Origin: Cristatella mucedo
Taxonomy: Eukaryota > Bryozoa > Phylactolaemata > Cristatellidae
Assembly: GCA_009760855.2 (NCBI GenBank)
Contig: WPIO01000064.1
Span: 1,352,001 to 1,416,000, forward strand
Direction of reading: 5' to 3'
DNA length: 64,000 nt
Both the position numbers and the translations under genes were made by a program. Position 1 is the stretch's first letter. Each line of letters begins with the position of its first letter. Under the pieces are notes generated by a model. The model saw nothing but the letters and a program-made list of their open reading frames with translations, made no database searches and was not told the origin of the DNA. Shown here in pieces: positions 24,049 to 56,793 of this stretch.

Positions 24049-25888
24049 GCGGTAACCCGGGTTGCCATGGTAACCCGGGTGGGTGCGGACTGCGATAACT
24101 ACCTAAATACTGGTCAAAATTATATGCGAAAAGGCTAAAAATGTTGGGCTCGTCAAGTACTATTCGTCAGCAGGAAGAAAGCGATTTAGAAAACGATGAT
24201 TTATATTGCGCCAGTGGGCAGCGGCTGACCAGATCCAGGGCTAGGATTCATGGCTCGAAGACGAAAATTGAGCCTATTTTTTCTATACATAGCTCTATAT
24301 TAATGAATAATTTGGGATAACCGCTGGTGCATTCTTCGAGCGCCCCACAGAGCGTATCTGCACGCCCTGAACAGACGGGAAATGATTCCAAGAACTTGCA
24401 CACCAGTTCAATTGGGTTGTTAAGAACATCAGAGCTCCGAGCGATCAGAGGTCCGGTTCTTTTCACGGTTTTTACTCTGCTTTTTACTTTACTTTACTCG
24501 CTGATGCGATTGCCAAGCACAATCTAGGCTTTCACTTTTATGCGGATGACACTCAGTCGTACCTTTGCTTTGATCCCTTCCAGCCTTCGAGCACCTCGAA
24601 CTCTCTCAACTCGCTGCATGTATTGATGACATCCGCACGTAGATGGCAGCCAATTTTCTAAAACTACACGATGATAAAACTAACTAACTAGTTATGGGCA
24701 AACCCACTGTGATTCACAAATTGGAAAGGCTGACGCTTAAAATTGGCTCTGCCAGCACATCTCCTGTTGAATCAGCTCGAAATCTAGGTGTCATATTCCA
24801 AAGCGACCTCTCGTTAGACGACCATATCAGCTCCACAGTCAAATCTGCCTATTTTCAGCTTCATAATATTGCTAAAATTTGGGCTTGTTTAGGTAAGGAT
24901 ACCACGTCCAAGTTGGTCCATGAGTTCGTGACATCCCGTCTCGACTTCTGCAACCCACTGCTTACTGGCCTACCGGCATATGCGATCAGACTGTAGCAGC
25001 TGGTGCAAAACTCCTCAGCTAGGCTTGTCTGTCGTGAGCGTCGCAGTTGCCACATTACACCACTTCTCGCCGACATGCACTGGCTACCAGTCAATTAACG
25101 CATTGACTTCGCGGTTTTGTCGCTCCCTTTTAGGTCCCTTCGTTCTTTGGCTCCAGCCTATCTCTCAGATATACTACCCCATCAGGCCAAGCATCATTCC
25201 ACTTGCATTACGGAATCCAACAGCCTACAAATACCTCGTACAAACCTCAAATCCTTTGGGGACGTGCATTTAGTTCATATGCTTCCAAAGCCTGGAACTC
25301 CCTCCCGACCTGCGTTAGAACGTCCCCTGACCTCACGAAATTTAAAAAGAACTTAAAAACACACCTATTTAGGACAGCATTTAGTGGATCCCTGTGATTC
25401 GCCCTTGATGTGCTTATGCGTGCTGACAATGTGCATGCTGCAACTAAACACATTTGCATGCTGACCCTGTGCATGTCACCCCTAACCATGTTATTCATGT
25501 TGTTTATCAAGCCTGATATTACTCACCATTCAATCGCGTTTGCCTTTGCAGCAAATTTAAAGCGCCTAGAAAGAGATTGAGTTCTCTGAGGGCACTCTAG
25601 CAAGTGCGTTATTATTATTACTATTACTATTATTATTATCATTACTAACATCTTTTTATATCGTCATTATAGCCAACCACAGCGTACATCCTTTGATTGA
25701 GCTCTTGCATACTTTGATTGAGCTCTTGCATTCTTCAAATTGCCTAAACATGGTTCTGACGGTGCTGCTTCTAAATTAGGTCAACGGCGTTTTCGACTTT
25801 GAAACGCTATATTTTTAGAGCAGCTATTCGCAAAATAAAGAATTAATCCCAATTCTAATTGCGGAAATTTGGTAACCCGGTTTACCGC
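24049..25888 (+). mobile_element. Inverted-repeat element split by LINE-A (unclassified)
   Basis: GCGGTAACCCGGGTTGCC (24,049-24,066) and the complement of GGTAACCCGGTTTACCGC (25,871-25,888) match at 16 of 18 positions in inverted orientation. Without the LINE-A and its target duplicate they bound about 618 bp. Inside are a short acidic ORF from ATG 24,141 (MLGSSSTIRQQEESDLENDD, stop after about 60 residues) and a 20-bp direct repeat (CTTTGATTGAGCTCTTGCAT, about 25,690 and 25,713). No target duplication was resolved. It might be a MITE, or the two motifs may belong to neighbouring elements (the right one abuts the end of pogo-2). Confidence 0.4.
24431..25646 (+). mobile_element. LINE-A, 5' truncated, in the inverted-repeat element
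   Basis: Flanked by AACATC at 24,425-24,430 and 25,647-25,652 (6 bp, short but exact). It begins inside the RT at GPVLFT and includes the YADD region (24,541-24,560: FYADDTQSY). The C-terminal block carries several stops and frameshifts, and the hairpin plus (ATT)n tail is at 25,557-25,640. Confidence 0.85.
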
Positions 25889-40662: not shown

Positions 40663-41850
40663 GAATAATAATAATAATACATCTTTATAGCGTCCCAGAA
40701 AACTCCGCCTCTTTCTAGGCACTTTATGTTTACTGCAAAGGAAGCATTATCGAATTGTTAGAGGTAGCATGCTCAATGGCAATAAGCAGATCATGGTTAG
40801 AGGTGACAAGGTGACTTAGCACAGGGTCAGCATGCAAATATCGCTAACGGCAGCGTGCAAAGTGTCAGCTCTCATAATCATGGAAAAGACGAATCGTGTG
40901 GGTCCATTAAATGCCGTGATAAATAGATGCGTTTTAGTTTTATTTTAAATGTGATCAAGTCAGGGCATGTCGCGATGCAAGTCGGAAGTGGGTTCCAGGC
41001 TTTGCGAACATACGAACTAGATGCACAATCTCTAAAAGATTTGAGGTTCGTGTTATGTAGAGGTAAATTAAAAGATTCCGAAAAGTGGGTGGAACGATGC
41101 TTGGCCTGGCGTGGGAGTAGATCAGATAGCTAGGCTTGAGCCAAAGAATGAAGGGACCTAAAAGTGAGCGACAGAACCTTGAAGTCGATGCATTGCTTGA
41201 CTGGGAGCGAGTACAAGCTTCGAAAAGTGGCATGACGTAGCAACTGCGACGCTCACGACAAAAAAAGCCTTGCTGCAGATAATTTTACCAGTTGTGAGCG
41301 CCTGATTTCGCAGGCCAATAAACTAGCAAGCGGTGAGTTGCAGAAGTCAAGGTGGGATGTCACAATGTATGGATCACTTTAGATGTGGTGTTCCTGTCTA
41401 AAAGAACCCGATTTTTAGCAATGTTACGTAGCTGAAAGTAGGCAGACTTGACTGTGGAGCTGATGTGGTCGTCTAATTAACGGTCATTTTCGAATAGGAC
41501 ACCTGGAGATTTCGATTTCGTGCAGATCAATAGGAGATATGCTGGCAGGGCCCAGAGAGAGAGCATTCGCCTTACCAATTCCTGAATCACACCCCTGGTT
41601 TTCCCATAACTAGTCAGCTGGTTTTATTATCATTCAATTTAAGAATGCCTGCTGCCATCCATGTGCGGATGTCGTCAATATATGCAGCAAAAGAGTTGAG
41701 AGAATTCGACGTGCTGGATGGCTATCAGGCATCAAAGCAAAGGTACAGTTGAGTGCCATTACCTTGAGGTGAAAGCCTAGATTTTGCCTGGCAATCTCAT
41801 CGGCAAGATGGAGAGTATAAACCGTGAAATGAACGGAACCAAGCACAGCA
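40663..41850 (-). mobile_element. LINE-A, minus copy with RT remnant
   Basis: (AAT)n at 40,663-40,680, hairpin complement (CTCTTTCTAGGCACTTTATG), 3' UTR, C-terminal block, and at 41,634-41,846 the RT stretch VHFTVYTLHLADEIARQNLG with a frameshift destroying YADD. Lies downstream of the guanylate cyclase gene. Confidence 0.8.
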
Positions 41851-42240: not shown

Positions 42241-42288
42241 TCAATCGAAAGCAGTCTTCAGCCAATACGTTTTGTATAAAATGTTTCC
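42241..42288 (-). CDS. Cyclase exon 9 (last): GxxxxxTYWL end
   Basis: Acceptor CATGTCTTTTCAG in phase 0 with exon 8, then [15 protein letters not shown] and TGA (42,241-42,243). Homologues continue VK-GKGTMGTYWL, so TYWL and the leading Gly fit, while the GKG lysine is replaced by Asn. It lies 3.2 kb from exon 8 and is short, hence moderate confidence. Confidence 0.65.
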   Translation of the reverse strand, partial: GNILYKTYWLKTAFD

Positions 42289-45200: not shown

Positions 45201-48200
45201 GCCCGATGCCCCGCCGCCATGCTCACGCGCGAGTGGCTCCCTCTGGCCGCTAGACACACGTCCTTGCTATTTCGACGGAACGGCTCGTTAACCGCATCGC
45301 GTTCCGCAGCTCGCGCTGTATCTGGCCAGCCACGTTTGCATTTCCGTTCTAATTGCCGGCGCCAGCAAGTGCTGCGGCAGCATTGCCGGCTGCCGGCCCG
45401 TCGCGACGGAGAACGGTTCGCAGCCGGCCGCTTCGCTGTGCGCCTGTCCGCCCTCACCTTGACCTCGACGGTGCCTCGCTCCACTGTCTCGTACCTTGGA
45501 TCGGCGGGCAGACCAGCGCGCGTGCTCTCGCTCAAGTGGATCTTCATGGCCTGCAGAGCAAAGGCACGGCGAACGCAGTCCTCCCTCCCTCGCTCGCCGC
45601 GCGCGCGCGCCCCGGCGCCTGCGCCTGCCGCTCGCTGGCTCGACGGCAGCCAGCGAGCGGCAACTACGATCGGCGCCGCGTGTCGGCGCCGCGTGCTCCG
45701 GAGGGTGACATACGCCGGGGGCAGCCCGGTGACCGGCACCGGTGACAGCTGCCATCGGTCGGGGCCGTGGCGACAGTGGCGGCCACGAGCGGCGAGCGCC
45801 GCGTCGAGCGATCGCGTGCGCTATTGAGGAACGGCCGCGCGAGCGAACGTCACGTCCTGCCCCGCTCCCGACCGCCTCGGGCACCCGCTTACTTCTCCGG
45901 TGACTTCCAATCGTTCGGCAATGCTGACGGTGTCGCCGAAAAGGCAGTACCTCGGCACCTTTAGGCCGACGACCCCAGCGACAACCGCACCCGTGTGAAC
46001 GCCTTCAAGAACGTAGCGAGCGCGAACCCTCGTGCCGCTGCCGCCTCGAAACGCGCGCAGCTCAAGCGATTCGGTCAATTGATTGCATAGCGCTGTTAAA
46101 CAAACTAAAAATGTCACGCTGACTAGACTTTTTGGCTTCAGTGCGCGAGGGTGTGCCTTTGTGCGTCTTCTTGTCGATGACATTCGATCGCTATTGACGA
46201 CGGTCGCAACAGCTCCTATATTATGTTCGAGGCTTTTTTTAAGTGGAAAAGTTAACCACAACGTTTTGACCTCCCGCTAGCTTTCCACAGATCCTTGGCC
46301 TATGCCCTCCAAGGCTATCTTTGAGGGCTGCAGGGACTGAGGAGAAGTGGCGGCTGCAGGGACTGCGCCTGAGGACTGAGGGCTGAGCAGAAGCTAGATT
46401 GCCAGTGACTCGACCAACGAGCGCCAGCCAGCGCCATTCCGCCCACCGTTAATTGTTTCAATTAAAAACTATATCATTAAGCCCAGCAAGGAATGACCTT
46501 GCATTAGGGCACTTCCGGGCAGCAGTCCTACTGTTGAGATTCGTGGGTGTGGCTATCGTCTATCGCTGCCACTAGGGCAGCGTGCGCGCAAGCGCGGTGG
46601 TGCTTCGGCTTTTAATCGTGCGCAGCTCGATGATGCCGTAAGTCGCAATGCACATTCGCGGGTGCGTTGCCTTATCGTCGGTGGTTGCGCCTGTTTGGCG
46701 CTGCTGGCACCGTCTCCGACCCGCGACACGCGGCAGCTTTTGCCCCATTAAATCGTTCCGATCAATGTGCGTTTAATTAGTTCCTTCAAACTGGTCTTGC
46801 ATTCTTTTCCGGCAACTAGAGCAGCGACCACTCGGCTCGTTGAGACCGCGTACTCGTATTATCGAACGCTCCGGCGTCACCGTGCAATGGTGCATGTATA
46901 ACCCTCTCAATGAATCATGCTGACGTTTTGAATGGCAGTTAAACCTCATAGCCGAATAGCAACTTTCCCGCACATTTCTTACAGCGCGCGAATCGCGATA
47001 GACCGGCCCTCAGGCAGCATGACTGCTCACCACTTGACCACTCGTTCACTCGTCTGCCCACCTACCCTTGCTAAGCCAGATCTCGAGCTTTCGTCGCGGC
47101 GAAATGCATTTCTCACGCTTCACGACGCAAGTGCTTTGCTCAGATGGCCCCAGCTCATTCAGCGAGCGATTCTCAATTAAATTGCCACATCCACCGACGC
47201 GACGGCGGCGAAGCGGCGGGGGGGGGGGGGAGGCGGCGGTGGCTGCGTCGGATTTCCGTCTCGCCTCGACGCGCTGCCCAGGCGCTGACGATGACGACCA
47301 CCGGCTTACGACGCACTGCAAGTCGGCGTTCAAAGAAGCTCTGCTGGCAGAATTCAAATCCAGTGTCTCTGAGCCCCTGCTATTGCTGGCAACCTATGGC
47401 GGCCTCTCGCTGGGACTGGGGCAGGCAGGGAACTGCAGCCCCGTCGAGCGGTCGGTCGGCTCCACCAATCCGAGGCAAAATGAAACCGAGGCTTGAGGAC
47501 CGACCGTGGAGCTGGCCCGTAGTTCTCGAGGTGGCGCTTCGTTGATCGATGCTTGGAGCACGCTCGGTCACCGGTACCGGCTCGCGCTACACCAAGTAGA
47601 GAGGCCCTTGATCGATTGATTGACCTCCTATTGAATGAAGCAGCCGCGCCGAGCACTCAAGGGAAATGAGCGGGGCGGGTGGAAGGTCGGTAGGCATTCG
47701 GCGGCAGCGCTATCGGGGAGTCGTGCTCAGATCGACGCTGAATCTCGGTGGCGGCCGTCTCTAGCGAAGGAACGAGCGACGGCCATTGTTTACTGGCGAC
47801 CCGGTCGTGCTGAAAGTTCGCGATACTTTGGCAGCGCCAAAATCTGACCCTTACCGACGCGAAGTCTCAGGTGCGAGTATTTCAATGAATCCGACGGGTC
47901 GCAGAACCTGCGAACCGTTATTAACACGTCGGCGGCCATGTCCACGACATCGACTTGGTGCGTCGTCGATCTGGTCGGCACTCCGCCAACGACCATGTAT
48001 GCATCCCCAATTGTCTCCACCTGAAAGATGGCATCGCAGCAAACGGGCCAAAGTGAGAGCAGATCAGTGTATCGCAACTAGAAAGTGTATCGCAACTAGA
48101 AAGTGTATCGCAACTAGAAAGCCAAGCGGGAGCACTCCCGCACTGAGGCCGCTGCGCCTGCATTCTTGACACGATGCGGCGGCGCAGCCAGCAGTTGTGC

Positions 48201-51200
48201 ACAAGCGATCTACTACCTCCAAACCGTCGAGCGTAGACAATTTCCCAAGCCGGATGCCATAAGTTTGATGCTTGCAGCTTGTAATACTGCATCCTAATAT
48301 CTACTCTCTGAGCTAATGAAGATAATAAAATTAAGATTATGAGATATTGAAATCCGGCCAGGTGCTCAAAATACGTTGGATTAATGCTGGTACGAATGCA
48401 CGTTCTATGAATCGGCTGCTAACGACAGTCTTGAGTGGCGGAGCCTGGTGCTCAATCCTCTATGGTAGCTCTGCCTTCCTTCGACATGAACGCGAAGGTA
48501 GCAATAGTTTTTTTAGCACTTAGTTACTTCAATTGGTCTTGAAAGAATCCCAGCGTCTGCACATTGGTTTCTCGGTTCAATTAAAATAATTTCCTCACCA
48601 TCCTCTCAGTTGGCAAGTGCAAGATTTAAATTGCATTCACTCGGCCTCCTTACTGTGCAATTTTTTTAAAGCATACACGCGAGTCTTTTTTACTGGTCTG
48701 CGAAATATGCTGACCGCGGTAAGTTGGCCTCGCAGCACGTGTACTATTCAAAAAGTATAGACTAGGCCGAAAGGCACGACGTTCAAGGAAGTGACTTCAT
48801 AAAAAGTATTGCCATCTATTGTCTAAGTATGGCTGTTTGACTGGAACTGTATACTCTCTAAGCATCACACAGCATGCTAATGCTAATCCATAATGGCGAC
48901 AGTACAGAATCGGGAGTAGATATTTCGTTCGCTGTACAAGCTGACAGCAGCGCACCATGCCGCATGCTGCACCCGCCTACCTTGTAACATCTATGCCTTT
49001 CAATAAGTGTGTCGAAGCAGGTGTACATATCGTTAAGCATGTAGACGACCTGCATGGGGCTAATTGAACTGCATATGACAGTGAAGTCGACGACGTCGCA
49101 CAGCATGACGGTGCAGCTGTCGAATGCCTGCAGCAACGGCAGCCAGCACTAATGCCGCGCGAGCAGGGGCTTCAAATGTTCCGATGTCGCACCGATCGAA
49201 AACCCAGCAGTAATTCTCCAGCCGACTTGGCAGCACCTCGAGGCTCGAGTGCTCGCTCCTCTGCCCCTTGCCCAGCCCAGCCCAGCCCCCCCCCCCCCGC
49301 GCCCCTCGCGCCCCGCTTAGCCACTGCACCTCGCACGTATTCACGGCCGGTTCGCCTCGTCTCAGCCGATCGGCGACCGGCTTGGGTATCATCTGGTGGA
49401 GCAGCTGGTCGGTGCGCTGCATCTGCTCCTCCAGTCTCTTCACGCTCTTCTCCAAGCGCTCGCTCTTTCTTTGCTCCTGCGGGCGGGCGGCGCTTCGTTC
49501 GAGACGCTTCGACCGCGAGCGCTTCGAGACGCACTGCTGCAAGGCCGCCTCTGACGCGATGGGCTAGCGAGCAGCAGCCGCCGCCGCAGGCAGCGGCGGC
49601 GGCCCCGGCGGCGGCGGCAGCAGTGCAAGCGCTGCAGCGGTGGCGAGCCGACTCGTCGGTCTGACTCGTGTCGTGAAGCGGCTACACTTTTGCCATTCAA
49701 GGGCACTGGTGACCGTACTCCTTCATAGCGGACCTCGGCAGCACTAAAAGCTGCTGACAAGCGACACTGCAGTCGGATCTCTACATGCAGTGCATTCACC
49801 GCTCTCTGTGTGCATCGCTGCCCGACTGTAGCCCGCGAGGCTAGCGACAGGCTGGTACATTACGCGAACGCTTGAAAGCAAATTTAACAGCATCGCGACA
49901 GCGATTGCAGGCTCTCACTTTGACAATAGAAACCATGGACGAATTCATGACAGAGGATTTCGTTTTATTGTTTATTTGTTATTTTTATTATTTATTATTT
50001 TATTATTTTATTTTTATTATTATATTTATTTATTATTTATTTCTAGGATTTCGTCTTATCACTGAAATGAGTCTGTCATTCGCTGCTGCTCTTTTCAAAA
50101 ATGATTCGAAAAATAGCTTTATTGTATCTAGACGCTAGTTCGCTCATTTGAACAATTGCTCAGTACGTCGTGCCAGGTCATCGCCGGCTACTTAAACTCA
50201 TTCGAGCGTGCGTATATGCACGCGGTCGGACACAGCATTCTCTAATAAAGTTCATTTCCTTAGACCGTTCAAGAAATGGTAGCAGATCTGATTGCTTATA
50301 CGCACACAGTGACCCCATGTATTTTGTAAAGTGGCATTAGACAATCCGAAATCGTTACCACAGAGGCTGTCGCCGCTAGAGTTTTGCCTTGGCATCGGCG
50401 CTGATTTGAGCATTAGGCCACAAAGCTGCTGGTGTAAGTCGTGGCCGCATTTGAATGCCTGCAATATTCCGTTACTTTCAAACAGATCTATGCAATGAAT
50501 ATGGACTTGTTATCTTAAAGTTATAGGTGATCTTCACTGCTGCCGTTTTCCACTGCTGTCTAACTACCGCGGTGCACTGTCGCTGCTCTTGCAAGTCTTT
50601 AGTCGTGATAGAAATTTCAAGTGTCTTGGGTATTTGTCGCTCTTTGACAGAGAACTTGCCAAGTTAGGAGCTCTATGCTTACGGCCTATTTCTGTTCTGA
50701 TGAAGAAGCCGCTACAGCCCGCTTGTAAGAGACCTGTGCTGCTTCTTCGTTGCCGCCTCGTTATGGCGACCTCAGCATTTTCTGGGTTACGAGCGACACG
50801 CAGCGACCGGCAGGCGCTAAATCAAGCATCTATGTTGTCGCGATCACTCGTAGAGAACGCTTTCAGATAAGCTAAAGCTAGGCTTTTCAGTTTTCTCGCA
50901 GCAGCAGCTGCTGCTGCTTACTCGTTCACTATCATCCCTGTGTCGAGCACTGCCGTGGCTTGCCAGTGAGGTGGCTCGGTAGCTTAAGAAGGAATGCATG
51001 CATACAAAATGTAGATAGTCTGTCGTGCAATCTCACGCGCTGACACGGATCGCTGCTGGCCACGGTGAAGGCGGAAGGTTTCTTTTCCTAAATGTGTCAG
51101 CAACGGAGGCGGCGCGGCTCTAGTGCTGCAGCGACCAGCGGGTCTTTCTTCCTGTACGACTATGAGGAATAAAAAGCTGTAGATGCAGAGTAAGGAATGA

Positions 51201-54200
51201 CGCAAGTAAAAGCACCTAGTTGGCTGAACGACGACGTTCCAGCGGGAGCTCTCTCGGTGGAAAGCTTTTAAAAAGGACCTCTGGTCAGTACTCCCTAAAA
51301 AACCGCTCGGTAAATGCAAGATTAAATTACTACGTAGTGTAATGGCATCGCTGTACTGGGAACCGAGAATGACGCTTGACTGGAGTTGTTGGGCGACTAG
51401 AGCGACTGTGGCAGCAGAGCAGCGGCCAGCGGTGCTGAACAGCGACCTTGCCTGGTCGAGCAGCAGTTTCAGCTCAGCCGACTGCTGAGATCCCGCGAGA
51501 AAGAGGTCTCTGCTCGAGTCGTGAATGCTCAAGTCGTTCACAAACAGTCCAAGTCGAGACATCTGCTGCAGATCCGCCAACCTGAAAGCGTCAGCTGTTG
51601 CATCATGCAAGAATAAAAAACGCACAATGTCGCTATAAACCGCAGCGTCGGGGCTTTGACCTTCACCTTCGCACGAATAATAAAGAGCGAGCGCCCGCTT
51701 GCGTTAGCGAATCTCGCGCTAGACTCGCAGCCACCGTGGGCCCCGAATAGACCGAATAGTAGGAAAATCGTAGCGAAGCATACAAGCTGGCGATCCGTAC
51801 AAGCAGCTCGTCCGACGCGCGAAGCAGGCGCGACCAAGGCTATTGCTAGTCCGTGCAATTTCCGGTTTCGCTTCCCTTAGTGCAAAAGGGTGACACCTGT
51901 CCAGCCAAGAGGCAGGATGTAATGTGACCAAGCATTGACATAGCCATGCTTCAACCACTGCAGCTGCGGTTCTTTGTTATAATTCTGGAAGCGCTAATCC
52001 CGGCAGCCATTACTCGAGGTAGTATTAAATAACGAATAATATAATATTAATAATATTATTAATAATAATAATATTAAAGTGCGTTTTTGTCAGATGCAAA
52101 TCTGAGGATGAATACACTTGGCGCCAACCGTTACTTCGTGGCTTAGCTTCAACAATTAATCTTCAACGATTAATCATACGCAAGGTGCTAACTCAACTAT
52201 TCTTCAAAAACCTCTGGTTTCCGGAAGAATATCTAAGGAATGAATGAATTGAATCCGTGTTTAGTTTAAAAAAACTTAAGACCCGAGCAAAAAAAAACAG
52301 TCAGTCCTACAAGTTCAAGCCATCCGAAATTTGCATTTAAGCTCTCATCGCCACTAGACGGGTGAGAGTGATTAATGCCTTAAATACTGCCTGAAGTCAA
52401 AGCGGCTTCGACTTTATAATAGTTACAGGTTAGTTACCAGTTACAGGTTTCGCAGCCTTTCGCCTACGTTGATTACTGACCTGGAATTGTGCACACTAAT
52501 ATTCGTAACAAGCAGTTTTTCAAGTCATGGTGGATTAATGATAGCAATAAGTAATAATAAACCTTTATAACAACCTACCATGGCTAAATCTCTTTCCAGT
52601 CTCTTTAAATATCCTCTAAATGAATCGTGTTAACAGGTTAGCGGTAAAATGCACACCGTCACCCCGCGTAAGTATATAAAGAACGATTCACACAGACAAG
52701 GCTAATGCTTGGAGGAATTCGTACGGTTCGAGGTTCTAAAAGCCGACAAGTCAGGAGATGCTGCGACGTCAGTCGGTAGTGCGACTCGAGTTAAAGAGCG
52801 CGCGGTGCGATTTAGGGAAGTAGTTCTGACTGGAGCTGGAGGTTAGGAGCGAAGCGAGTGAAGGGACCTTAGCAGAGGCAGAGCAGCCAGACTGTTCATC
52901 TAGGTAGGTCATGACCTGAACTATTTGCACGTCGGCTGGGCATCAAGATCCGCAAGATTTGCATGTAGGCGGGACTAGAGCAAAATTCGCTGAAACGCTA
53001 TGACATAAAATTATTACAGTGCTCATCTGACATGAATCCTTCGGTTGCCTAGCGAGTGGAATTAAGGCGCAATTTCTTCATCGGTGGTGGTAGTGAGGAG
53101 GCGTAAGAATAGGTGGTGGCCAAGCAAGCTGACTCACCGTAGGTGAGCAAATCCCACCTTTCCCACTGGCTCAGCCACTGAACCTGCGATTTAGTGACAA
53201 AACCTTGAAGTCAATACGCTGTGGCGTATGGGTAGCCATTGCAGGTTGATGACAGGTGTGTACTTGCGGCAACTGCGATGCTCACACGGACAAGCCGGGC
53301 TGAAGGTTTTGGCACCATCTTTTAAGCACCTGACTGCACAGGCCTGAAGACTTCTGAGTAGTGACCTCCAGAAATCGAGACGCGATGTCAGGAATGCATG
53401 GACAAACTTGGGTGTGGTATCCCTGTCTATGCAGGCCCCAATTTTGCGATTTTACTTAGCTGAAAGTAGACAGACTTGACTGTGGAGCTGAAGCGACAGT
53501 CTCGTAAAACTTCACATAGAAACAGTACATTCAGATTTCGTGCAAGTGCACAGCAGGTATGATGGCCGAGCTCGCTTTGAGGGCTATTTTTTCAGATTTC
53601 TGATTGACAGTGGGGTTTCCATAATTAAATAGACAGTAGGCCATTCACCGATCAGCACGCGACTGCTTTCCGTGCACTAAAACGTTGCGTTTTTCTCTAT
53701 CCTCTTCATTTGAATGAGCTGAGCTAATGGCCTTCATCTGTTTGAGCGTCAAGGCGTCTCTCTATCTAACGATGTCATGAAAACACCTCTCGCCAATGTC
53801 TCACAGAAAGTATGAGGTCCACTCTGCCGAAAGCTCTCCTTCCTCGCTAGCATATATGTTCTTGCAGATTATATATATTTATTTATTTATTTATTTAATG
53901 TAGAAATATGCTGGTCTTTAAAGGCTGTAGAATAAATCAAGTTGTGAAATAAATACGATGCGGATGGTTTTATAGGTTATAGGGCAACGGGTAGATTTCG
54001 GAGGATGTATTCTTTTGAACGATCGCTGTAACGTCCCACCAATCTGCTACATCACTGTGATTGATTTTCAACTTTTCCTACGAGAAACTTATTGCATACT
54101 TCGTCCATTATCCAAATTTACCTTGGCTTTAACTGTAGAGGATTTGGCACAAGCAAAAATGTAGGCGGTACGAAATCTCTAAAGCTTACTGTAGATCTTC

Positions 54201-56793
54201 AGCAGTTTCTGCATTCCAACGGTTTTTCGCGTACTTGAGGAATCAGAATTAGTACTGTTTAGCCGAAATGTAATACTTACACTGGAGTTGCTATGAATAA
54301 CACGGACTTCCACTCTTGCATGCAAATCATCTCTCCCTTGAGGACCAGGTGCTGTACGCTTTGATGCCGCTCCGACAAGGCCGAAGGAGAGCTCCGCAAG
54401 TCAGTGGAAAAAGCAGAACTAGACGGTTTGCCCTCTCTGATGCTTGAACGATCGTCTGAGATGAATACAAAGCATCAAAAATCGTCAATAATGCGCAAGT
54501 GTAACTCAACAATCGTTAGCACTCTAGATACTTTTAATCTATGCCCTTACCACCACAGCATACTGATAGTTCCTGCACTGATCGTAATTCGAAGACGTTA
54601 TTTACGTGATCCAGAACCTGAAAGATAATACCAGCGTAGGGATTAGCTTCCTTAAAAAGTTAAAGTAGTAATAGACTTGCTTATGTCAGTCAAAGTATCG
54701 TGTAGCTTCCTTTAGAATCTTGAGGGTCGGCTGGAGAAGCACTGGTTGCTGTATACAAGTAAGAAGAATATCAATTGAGAACTGACGCTTTGGTAACGCA
54801 TGAGAGAGACCTACGCGATTGCAAAATATAAAGAGCTCTTACTTTTCCAAGTTCATTGTGATGGAAACAAAACAAAGGCTGCTTTCTTACTTCTTTACTT
54901 ATTACTTTCTTACTTCTTTCTTTACTTCTTCTATCCGGCAGTGCATTCACTACCAGCGGCTATTACGTTTCAATATTTTCAATTTTTGCCGATATTTGAG
55001 CGCACGATCGTCTGTGCGTGGGTTGCGTGCATTGCCAACTAGCCGTCCGATAGTCAGGTGACTATAATCAGGGGCAGCTGGGGAAGCAGCAGATTCATGT
55101 TACTGCACATTTTTGACGTACCAGTAGATGCGGCGGCTAGCAGAGTTTGCTAGTAGATGGTGCTGACAGATGTGTCCACAGGTTGCATTGGCATTCGCCA
55201 CACACTAGTACCATCTATCGGCATATTAATATGCATAGCTACGCATGCCTTGCCAGTACAAAATACTGTAGGTAGGCTTGTCTGTCGTAGATGTCGCAAT
55301 CGCTACATTACACTACCTCTCACCAACCTACACTTGCTCCCCACTCAACCAGCGCACAGACTTTAAGTTTCTGTCACCCAGTTTTCCCTTCATTCTCTTT
55401 TCTGCATTTGAAAGCTTTGAAATTTTTTTTTAAACTTCTCGCGGCTGCCCTCGCTACAGCTGGATTATGTTAGTTACGTCACACTTTTTGATGTTATGTC
55501 TTCATTAACTATGTTCTAAAAGCCTAGAGCTCAATAATCTACTGATATCACGACGGCCCTGAACTTTACCAGATTAAAAATTTAGATAGAACCTCACCTT
55601 TTCCACATTGCATCTGTTCCGTCCATCTGCATTTTTTTAAAGAGACTCCAGTGGCATGGCGATATCCTGGTTTGCAAGGCAGTGTCGGTCAACCTACGGC
55701 ATTGGCCCAAGGATCGTCAAAATGGTACCACGCTCACGAAGTGGCCTTAGCTGGTGAGTGCAGTTCTGCAGTTCTGGTGAGTGCGACGCAAACATTAACT
55801 TTTCAAAACCTTGCTGAATTTCCTAATGCAAGAATGTCTTGATTCTTGGCTGTGTAGCTTTGCTCAGTTTGGCCTTCACAAACTAACAAACTAATCGATA
55901 CGTGACAGGCACAATAATTTAATCAATCGTGCTCTCGTCCGCTCTGCAATCAATCTAATTAGAGGCGCCCATCTTCCTGCTTAGAATCCCTAAAAAATAA
56001 CGCGGCTTACCGTCTGAAGGTCGAAACCTTCAGTCGCCGGTCTCTGGAGGTTGAACACATCGTCAATCTGTGAGCTTAACAGCTGAGGCATGATGGTGGT
56101 CAGACTTTTACCGACGGATGTAATAGTCAGTTGCTCATCGAATACAATATGGAATGGAAACAAGCTGAAAAACTCCGAACTCTGTATCGGAAAGTCTTCC
56201 AGCTGGAGTACGAGGCTTCCAGCTGGAGCAAGGTAGGAGCTATTGTCAAATGTCACTCTCATCTCATACACGGTCCACTGAGAAGTTTCAACTGCCTTGA
56301 GCACTGACAGCTCCACGTCAACGCCGTAGAAGAGCTTGGCTACTTGTCTTACTTGACCTTGGACGTAGTTAGCAAAGCCTTTCCTTTTGCTCCGGTAGTG
56401 CAAGGTCAGACCTGTCGCCGACTCGTCGGAAACGTAAAACGAAGGCGGGCTCATCTGAGGATAGCTAAGACGCAAGTACTCGTGCAGATTGTCCAAATTA
56501 TTCAAGAAGTCTCTGAGATTTCGACCAAGCACCCTTAGCAGTCGATCGTAGCCAAACTTGGCAACGAAGGATACAAACATGGCGCCGAACGTCTCAGTGA
56601 GCTCTTCGTAGCGCTTCCCGGTGACGTCATGCGCGGCCTTGGCGAGACGCGGGAATACGCTTTCGCTGTACTGCCGACTGGCAGTGAAGACTGCGTCGTG
56701 CAGATTGGCCCTTCTCCGAATCTCGCTGCACACATCGTCACCGAAGAGGCTCCTGAGGCTGGTGTAGACCCCTTCGAGAATCAGTCCGTACAT
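42241..56793 (-). CDS. Atypical soluble guanylate cyclase (Gyc-88E-like), split gene
   Basis: Cytosolic heme-protein enzyme converting GTP to cGMP. Drosophila Gyc-88E-type homologues respond to oxygen and only weakly to nitric oxide. Nine coding exons were recovered with compatible phases: 56,793-56,011; 54,617-54,551; 51,581-51,452; 49,476-49,330; 49,127-48,981; 48,020-47,855; 46,002-45,893; 45,550-45,458; 42,288-42,241. They encode HNOB (1-180), HNOBA, a signalling helix and a class III cyclase domain, about 560 residues in all, near the length of beta-type sGCs. A short HNOBA exon expected between 54.55 and 51.58 kb (LKGQM...FLGSP-type) was not found. The catalytic Asn is Ser (exon 7). Introns carry LINE-A debris and GC-rich DNA. 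Whether it is Gyc-88E itself or a lineage-specific paralogue is not decided. Confidence 0.85.
42490..42686 (+). mobile_element. LINE-A 3' UTR fragment
   Basis: TTGCATGCTGACCCTG... through the hairpin (CAGTGCCTAGAAAGAGATT...TGAGGGCGCT) and a short ATT tail. Lies in the last cyclase intron, antisense to the gene. Confidence 0.8.
43340..43432 (+). mobile_element. LINE-A (or SINE) tail hairpin fragment
   Basis: GTAAAGCGCCTAGAAAG, then GAGTTATCTGAGGGCGCTT, then (ATT)n. Only the last ~90 bp of the family remain. Confidence 0.75.
43745..43850 (-). mobile_element. LINE-A or SINE tail remnant
   Basis: GTATAGCGCCCAGATAAATC, ATTCTAGATGCTTCGTAAATG: a degenerate complement of the family hairpin. Boundaries unclear. 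Confidence 0.4.
43860..45457. other. Cyclase intron 8, GC-rich part; no other gene
   Basis: 44.1-45.4 kb is GC- and CpG-rich with C-rich runs near 44,220-44,270. ORFs at 44,112-44,474, 44,478-44,936 and 45,141-45,827 (plus) are long because of base composition. They overlap cyclase exons on the other strand, and I see no domain in them. Confidence 0.5.
45458..45550 (-). CDS. Cyclase exon 8: C-terminal part of catalytic domain
   Basis: 31 codons, phase 0 to 0. Acceptor [43 protein letters not shown], donor AAG|GTGAGG. It matches the conserved KVHISEST...YKIIERGEIDVK segment. It sits inside a longer GC-rich ORF whose other parts are intron. Confidence 0.93.
45893..46002 (-). CDS. Cyclase exon 7: substrate loop with Asn-to-Ser change
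   Basis: Two bases plus 36 codons. [20 protein letters not shown], then [17 protein letters not shown], donor GAA|GTAAGC. The Cys in RYCLFG is the guanine-specificity residue and the Arg of AERLE is kept. The usual Asn in DTVN-xx-SR is Ser (AGC codon), a change at a transition-state residue. Confidence 0.95.
46003..47854. other. Cyclase intron 6; no other gene
   Basis: Contains GC-rich DNA at 47.0-47.8 kb and a G-run at 47,219-47,232. ORFs at 47,068-47,545 on both strands have no recognisable domain. Confidence 0.5.
47855..48020 (-). CDS. Cyclase exon 6: second metal Asp and guanine-binding Glu
   Basis: 55 codons plus one base. Acceptor CCATCTTTCAG, then [20 protein letters not shown]...[13 protein letters not shown] and SHLRLRV, donor G|GTAAGG. 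Glu of VETIGDAYM selects guanine and Asp of the same motif binds the second metal. The loop after [11 protein letters not shown] is more divergent than in insects. A tandem 18-bp repeat lies just upstream in the intron. Confidence 0.95.
48066..48121. repeat. 18-bp tandem triplication near a splice acceptor
   Basis: GTGTATCGCAACTAGAAA three times head to tail, ending about 45 bp upstream (in gene sense) of the exon 6 acceptor. Confidence 0.95.
48981..49127 (-). CDS. Cyclase exon 5: catalytic domain, first metal Asp
   Basis: 49 codons, phase 0 to 0. Acceptor GTTGCTGCAG, then [39 protein letters not shown] and ...RCYK, donor AAG|GTAGGC. CDVVDFT carries the first metal-binding Asp (SDVVTFT in homologues, here with Cys replacing Ser). 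Confidence 0.95.
49330..49476 (-). CDS. Cyclase exon 4: coiled-coil signalling helix
   Basis: 49 codons, phase 0 at both ends. After acceptor CCCGCCCGCAG it reads [20 protein letters not shown], then [20 protein letters not shown] and GE...NTCE. This is the family's heptad coiled coil plus the [18 protein letters not shown] entry to the cyclase domain. Donor GAG|GTGCAG is weak but the join to exon 5 (NTCE|AFDS) fits. The longer GC-rich ORF around it is not coding beyond these limits. Confidence 0.92.
49477..51451. other. Cyclase intron 3 (GC-AG); no other gene
   Basis: Includes a GCC/GGC-rich stretch at 49.57-49.63 kb, an ATTT-rich stretch at 49.97-50.04 kb and a (GCA)n at about 50,901-50,917. 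ORFs 50,589-50,870 and 49,152-49,664 (plus) show no domain. Confidence 0.5.
51452..51581 (-). CDS. Cyclase exon 3: end of HNOBA and start of signalling helix
   Basis: One base plus 43 codons after acceptor GCTGACGCTTTCAG. It encodes [20 protein letters not shown] and [19 protein letters not shown], closely matching the conserved [20 protein letters not shown] block of Gyc-88E. It ends in LLLDQ at donor CAG|GCAAGG, a GC-AG intron of the usual strong consensus. A GT alternative four bases on would break the family match to the next exon. Confidence 0.92.
51582..54550. other. Region that should hold the missing HNOBA exon
   Basis: Between exons 2 and 3. A (TAA)n-rich stretch lies at 52,020-52,075 and LINE-A remains at 52.5-53.65 kb. 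No minus-strand LKGQM...FLGSP-like segment with proper splice sites could be read. TLKQMK at about 53,740 is the only weak echo and lacks the following motif. Confidence 0.4.
52545..53650 (-). mobile_element. LINE-A, old minus copy in cyclase intron
   Basis: Degenerate tail (AATAATAAACC...CTCTTTCCAG) at 52,548-52,605. CAAGTCAGGAGATGCTGCGA lies near 52,750. A clearer C-terminal block is at 53,193-53,470 (GACAAAACCTTGAAGTCAAT; GTAGACAGACTTGACTGTGG). About 300 bp at 52,880-53,190 does not match the LINE. Confidence 0.65.
54551..54617 (-). CDS. Cyclase exon 2: HNOBA continuation
   Basis: 67 bp, too short to stand out as an ORF. The acceptor TTATCTTTCAG precedes [17 protein letters not shown], which matches the HNOBA segment ILSHINTVFVLRSKEG of sGC beta1 and joins in phase 0 to DLQT of exon 1. 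The donor GTAAGG gives phase 1. The exact donor is less certain than the acceptor. Confidence 0.8.
55160..55420 (+). mobile_element. LINE-A fragment in cyclase intron 1
   Basis: GTAGGCTTGTCTGTCGTAGA and CACTACCTCTCACCAACCTA match the LINE-A segment coding RLVCRERR...ITPLLADLHWLP. No 3' tail was found. Confidence 0.65.
56011..56793 (-). CDS. Cyclase exon 1: heme-binding H-NOX (HNOB) domain and start of HNOBA
   Basis: 261 codons from ATG (MYGLILEG, the family's invariant MYG start) to donor CAGACG|GTAAGC. The preceding GTG-ACA in the same frame is not a plausible start. His104 in [10 protein letters not shown] is the proximal heme ligand (His105 of beta1 sGC), and Tyr133-x-Ser135-x-Arg137 in LHYRSKRKG is the heme-propionate motif. 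[20 protein letters not shown] begins the PAS-like HNOBA domain. TTCATTGCCTTGTAG about ten bases upstream of the ATG looks like a splice acceptor, so a 5' UTR exon is likely. No frameshift. Confidence 0.95.

Follow-up and report, generated by a model that had tools for sequence, protein, structure and literature searches.

The window (the whole 64,000-nucleotide stretch of Cristatella mucedo DNA that was analysed) contains a minus-strand gene of ten exons (56793-42241). It codes for a predicted 621-residue atypical-type soluble guanylate cyclase with H-NOX, H-NOXA, and class III cyclase domains, in which the catalytic Asn is replaced by Ser565. Judged from sequence, the gene forms a tandem pair with a second predicted atypical-type soluble guanylate cyclase. 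Dimerisation, activity, and gas response are our inferences, and we lean, if not strongly, towards reading the Ser protein as a diverged subunit that would pair chiefly with the product of the neighbouring gene, forming a gas-regulated heterodimer that makes cGMP, while its own homodimer would be weak.

All ten exons are predictions from the DNA. Nine were located manually, guided by homology and reading frames; joined in phase, they encode 606 residues with no stop. The tenth was placed by a scan of downstream sites preceded by AG, in which it scored 32; the next such site scored 18, and the best AG site on the plus strand scored 17. Without the AG condition, the runner-up anywhere in the window scored 25 (against 32). 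The predicted features were as follows:

56011 to 56793, minus strand: exon 1, H-NOX domain and start of H-NOXA (MYGLILEGV...DLQT), with heme ligand H104 and Y-x-S-x-R
54551 to 54617, minus strand: exon 2, H-NOXA; length (67) and phase equal to the sister gene
54281 to 54455, minus strand: exon 3, H-NOXA
51452 to 51581, minus strand: exon 4, H-NOXA; GC donor (gcaagg) after the exon, length (130) equal to the sister gene
49330 to 49476, minus strand: exon 5, linker preceding the cyclase domain; 147 nt in both paralogues
48981 to 49127, minus strand: exon 6, first metal loop LCDVVDFT (D445); FSDVVGFT in the sister gene
47855 to 48020, minus strand: exon 7, carrying E485, D489, and R537
45893 to 46002, minus strand: exon 8, carrying C558, R569, and Ser565 in place of Asn
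45923 to 45925, minus strand: AGC codon of Ser565
45458 to 45550, minus strand: exon 9, with VEVK at its end and the triphosphate Lys K606; 93 nt in both paralogues
42241 to 42288, minus strand: exon 10 (predicted), last strand of the cyclase fold and stop, with GNI at the GKG loop

The frame of the Ser copy has 621 codons and no internal stop. All nine introns have AG acceptors, and the donors are GT in eight and GC in one. The GC donor after exon 4 (51450-51451, minus strand; CAG/GCAAGG) is non-canonical, and the sister gene has GT there. Exon 8 is bordered by an AG acceptor (ttcttgaag) and a GT donor (gtaagc); numbered exon 7 in the initial annotation, it is counted here as exon 8 of ten. 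Elsewhere in the window, open stretches at 61755-60684 (minus strand) resemble, by eye and by their motifs, the 3' portion of a reverse transcriptase from a non-LTR retrotransposon. A short translated piece like ADLTVEL-WSSN recurs near 24848 and 3995, both on the minus strand, and near 41442 on the plus strand, which suggests copies of one interspersed element.

A Pfam search with the first 606 residues gave HNOB (3.3e-49, residues 2-163), HNOBA (4.1e-62, residues 202-423), and Guanylate_cyc (4.6e-53, residues 434-606), in the domain order that marks the soluble guanylate cyclase family. The cyclase score was 180 bits for the 606-residue protein, with the profile matched to position 171 of 183. 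The cyclase domain plus exon 10 scored 195 bits over profile positions 5-182 of 183, from a query whose length differs from that of the 606-residue query. No NCBIfam family was found for the cyclase domain of the window gene. Its identity was 55% to GC-A and 49% to GC-C. Alignment to beta-1 showed that the heme residues H104 and Y133-x-S135-x-R137 are retained (residue numbers counted by hand), consistent with the heme His and Y-x-S-x-R motif recorded earlier. The beta-1 cysteines important for the NO response are C78 and C122. Val stands at both of these columns (V77 and V121, columns counted by hand), as is characteristic of atypical soluble guanylate cyclases. The atypical class, to which Gyc-88E/89D and GCY-31/33 belong, is marked by a response that is weak to NO and strong to O2. 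The cysteines are absent from Manduca beta-3 and C. elegans soluble guanylate cyclases, according to the available part of PMC1435932.

The catalytic Asn column falls on Ser565, whose AGC codon (45925-45923, minus strand) is in frame within the ten-exon gene. The Asn-to-Ser change that the initial annotation had noticed in this exon was thus confirmed, and the ribose-orienting Asn of a canonical site is missing. The seven other catalytic positions checked, namely D445, E485, D489, R537, C558, R569, and K606, are retained by alignment to solved cyclases and to the sister gene. The class III guanylate cyclase set of two metal Asp, guanine-selecting Glu, Cys, two Arg, and Lys is present, in agreement with the earlier listing of Arg, both Asp, Glu, and Cys as intact. 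The further claim that only the Asn is changed held for the catalytic residues it listed, but changes were also seen at other positions that three outgroups conserve. Departures of the Ser copy beyond the Asn include LCDVVDFT, where the sister has FSDVVGFT, and an alpha-4 helix reading SIAERLEV.

According to the available part of the Chlamydomonas structure paper, the Asn is ribose-orienting and the Arg is transition-state-stabilizing (PMC2576301). Both are named as transition-state residues in the accessible portion of PMC6592433. The earlier statement that Asn and Arg stabilise the transition state agreed with the latter source, and with the former for the Arg only. The two Asp bind metal, and another Arg and a Lys position the triphosphate (PMC2576301 and PMC3591389, as far as available). 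Loss of the catalytic Lys along with the Asn was suspected from GNI for GKG in exon 10, and was rejected: K593 of beta-1, given the role of catalytic Lys in the accessible part of PMC3591389, aligns to K606 in exon 9.

The paralogue lies about 50 kb 3' of the window gene on the same contig and strand, in ten exons (C603:1344349-1328210). It encodes canonical FGDTVNTASRMESTG and EIK-GKGLMSTYWL and keeps all eight catalytic residues; among the catalytic positions, the two paralogues differ at one only. Exon phases are equal at all ten exons, and exons 2, 4, 5, 6, 8, and 9 are identical in length. The last exon of the sister (L091, L090 locus) was cut by us after TYWL. Its frame is open past GKGLMSTYWL to the end of the stretch read, which suggests a C-terminal extension. 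In the cyclase-domain tree, the window gene and its neighbour grouped as sisters (ultrafast bootstrap 96), with a branch length of 0.40 for the Ser copy against 0.15 for the neighbour. The tree sample consisted of PDB chains and own-genome exons only. The own-genome rows were stitched from tblastn pieces, and some span only part of the alignment (91 to 140 of its 142 columns); four rows with fewer than 90 columns (L099, L105, L106, and L108) were dropped, and L110 and L111 came after the tree. The window and the contig stretches 1318001-1353000 and 1416001-1426000 yielded no third copy. The presence of a canonical paralogue nearby lends circumstantial support to the partner-dependent subunit that had been suggested in the initial annotation.

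A sequencing or assembly error, or a private allele, would mean that the codon is really, or usually, AAC. A single transition separates AAC from AGC, and one miscall could produce the latter, but S568E lies in the same helix as Ser565, at a position fixed in three outgroups and with Glu in none of the best 80 bacterial loci. T566I, M570L, and S572V also depart, but relatives vary there, and these changes were given little weight. The 141-base stretch around exon 8 matched once in the 572 Mb assembly, in a search that scores the best candidates only, and neither a second copy of the exon nor a haplotig, with AAC or otherwise, was found among the candidates scored. A second copy encoding Asn, which had been named as evidence against the Ser reading, was likewise absent from the results of this assembly search. 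In the window, tblastn and a motif scan for a second copy gave nothing beyond chance-level matches, and the search for an internal repeat around exon 8 gave short pairs only. Adenosine-to-inosine editing could not restore the Asn, since it acts in the opposite sense. S568E and the single exon match weaken the error or allele that had been offered as the simple alternative, and we consider it very unlikely.

The conservation of the Asn was investigated among bacterial relatives and in the same genome. At least 586 bacterial relatives were confirmed, and the best 80 were kept; their sites are adenylate-type, with Lys and Asp at the base positions. Asn was present in all of these best 80. The S568E column had 69 Ser, 9 Ala, 1 His, 1 Asn, and no Glu in the best 80 of at least 586 loci, and Ile occurred at the T566I column in 19 of the same 80. 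The survey of the own genome (572 Mb, 688 contigs) listed 40 cyclase places, of which 17, not counting the window gene, include the Asn column. All 17 were read: 13 have Asn, and E, T, K, and D occur once each. The guanylate-type PRY motif was found in nine of the 17, all with Asn (9/9). The four exons with E, T, K, and D are among the remaining eight. The E, T, and K exons look like adenylate cyclase C1, and three C2-type exons have N, the types being assigned by eye. Of the C1-like exons, L095 groups with AC9 C1 in the cyclase tree. In L108 (G000:C17:337000-339000), a cyclase-like exon that reads WGDAVDDARKLE, the Asn column holds Asp. Among the PDB chains with alignments shown (5 of 52 and 5 of 41), two soluble guanylate cyclase alpha chains have Thr, and the rest have Asn, including AC9 C1. 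A literature search at the level of titles and the beginnings of abstracts, with most subscription journals outside its scope, found no case of Ser for Asn or of a pseudo guanylate cyclase.

The main rival to the heterodimer is an active homodimer, in which Ser or a rearranged alpha-4 helix would replace the Asn, perhaps with an altered rate or nucleotide preference. It is possible because an active bacterial cyclase has Ala at the Asn position. According to the available part of PMC4215837, this enzyme, the Mycobacterium avium adenylyl cyclase Ma1120, is active with Ala, and the change of Ala to Asn abolished activity. The accessible portion of PMC4886424 gives His for Rv1900c and mentions further established cyclases as lacking the Asn. 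The seven retained catalytic positions are consistent with an active homodimer, and S568E, beside Ser565, could compensate. The Asn in all of the best 80 of at least 586 bacterial relatives and in all nine other guanylate-type exons of the genome argues against it. We regard an active homodimer as unlikely, though deserving real weight.

Divergence between the paralogues was then compared. Pairwise dN was 0.39 and dS 1.98, with dS near saturation and the figure averaging both copies. Private changes relative to an outgroup were similar in the sensor domains, numbering 6 in the Ser copy and 10 in the neighbour for H-NOX, and 18 in each for H-NOXA, with no significant difference. In the cyclase domain, with three outgroups, the counts were 14/12, 19/16, and 20/10 (Ser copy/neighbour), and relative-rate tests on this domain against the three outgroups were not significant (chi2 0.15, 0.26, and 3.33). 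Outgroup letters were taken from PDB alignments. General relaxation of the Ser copy was not supported by these private-change counts. The change of the Ser copy into a young pseudogene on its way out would fit its cyclase branch, which is longer than that of the sister. The frame and splice sites are intact over 621 predicted codons, and pairwise dN is far below dS (dS near saturation, both copies averaged); with both against it, this fate is hardly credible.

At 62 columns identical in the three outgroups, the Ser copy alone departs at 8 and the neighbour at 3. The eight lone departures of the Ser copy are F443L, S444C, G448D, A505Q, I538V, M554V, N565S, and S568E. Clustering of departures near catalytic residues was not significant (hypergeometric p 0.34-0.72). 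A catalytic position is at most 4 residues away for seven of the eight Ser-copy departures and for none of the three in the neighbour (p about 0.02, worked by hand, post hoc, and not relied on). A pseudo-cyclase, that is, a heme sensor subunit that would bind a partner without a working site and serve as regulator or inhibitor, could account for changes in both half-sites: F443L, S444C, and G448D in the metal loop, and N565S and S568E in helix alpha-4. GNI at the GKG loop and the short predicted C-terminus also point this way. However, the two metal Asps, the two Arg, Lys, Glu, and Cys have all been retained, and this would be difficult to account for unless nucleotide binding were under selection. 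With seven of eight catalytic positions retained and no general decay of the Ser copy, the pseudo-cyclase raised in the initial annotation became less favoured, and we judge it quite improbable.

Class III sites lie between two cyclase domains, one chain supplying the Asps and an Arg, and the other Glu, Cys, Asn, Arg, and Lys. The neighbour has the full catalytic set, and the window gene has lost the ribose-orienting Asn and carries an altered metal loop and alpha-4 helix. In a heterodimer, the window protein would contribute its Asps and Arg to a first, nominally complete site, to which the neighbour would bring Glu, Cys, Asn, Arg, and Lys; the second site would be weakened. A heterodimer subunit is favoured because the neighbour could supply the canonical second half and because fly atypical cyclases are reported as heterodimers. 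The Thr of soluble guanylate cyclase alpha and the E, T, and K of the own-genome C1-type exons at the Asn column, together with the intact Ser copy and its eight lone departures (three in the neighbour), are consistent with this reading. Several observations argue against it, among them the non-significant relative-rate tests and clustering of departures. The Glu, Cys, Arg, and Lys of the base-binding side are retained, unlike in soluble guanylate cyclase alpha. Asn is present (VNLANLME) in the solved C1 domain of AC9, likewise a metal-binding half, so loss of the Asn is no fixed mark of metal-binding halves. In the Ser copy, the metal loop has itself changed (LCDVVDFT), and the half-site expected from the window protein could be weaker as a result. 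Lowered catalytic activity of the Ser protein is possible.

More tentatively, the pair may record an early shift from homodimer to obligate heterodimer. After the tandem duplication, one copy would have stayed complete, and the other would have lost the ribose-orienting Asn and reshaped its helix and metal loop, independently paralleling soluble guanylate cyclase alpha and the adenylate cyclase C1 exons of the same genome. Heterodimeric cyclases in which one site works and the other has degenerated are familiar; to our knowledge, early steps toward them are seldom seen. Two nearby copies with the same exon structure and one catalytic difference make the order of loss testable. If the Ser protein were active alone, it would instead be an animal counterpart of the bacterial cyclases that function although they lack the catalytic Asn. 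The canonical paralogue nearby and the departures of the Ser copy at other conserved sites go beyond the initial annotation.

The pair was compared with known cyclases. Drosophila Gyc-88E, Gyc-89Da, and Gyc-89Db likewise have H-NOX, H-NOXA, and cyclase domains, with more than one atypical subunit per genome; Gyc-89Da and Gyc-89Db are reported as heterodimers with Gyc-88E in the available parts of PMC9075734 and PMC11568450. The present genes differ from the fly proteins, which were compared by description only, in forming a tandem pair with equal exon phases and one member without the catalytic Asn. Soluble guanylate cyclase alpha (6jt0_A and 6pas_A) is similar as a heterodimer partner with a non-Asn residue (Thr) at the same column and both metal Asps kept. 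It differs in having Lys for Arg, whereas the window protein keeps the Arg and the heme residues. The alpha-like loss of base-side residues besides the Asn was not seen, as Glu, Cys, Arg, and Lys all remain. The H-NOX-like region of alpha binds no heme, according to the accessible part of PMC2576301. Chlamydomonas CYG12 (3et6), GC-A, and GC-C share the homodimer-type residue set with the window protein. The Asn is kept in GC-A and GC-C by alignment, in contrast to the Ser here, and Asn 599 is kept in CYG12 (PMC2576301, available part). The mycobacterial class III cyclases Ma1120 and Rv1900c resemble the Ser protein in the natural replacement of the catalytic Asn. They differ in being bacterial and in having Ala or His rather than Ser, and H-NOX goes unmentioned in the consulted portions of their descriptions.
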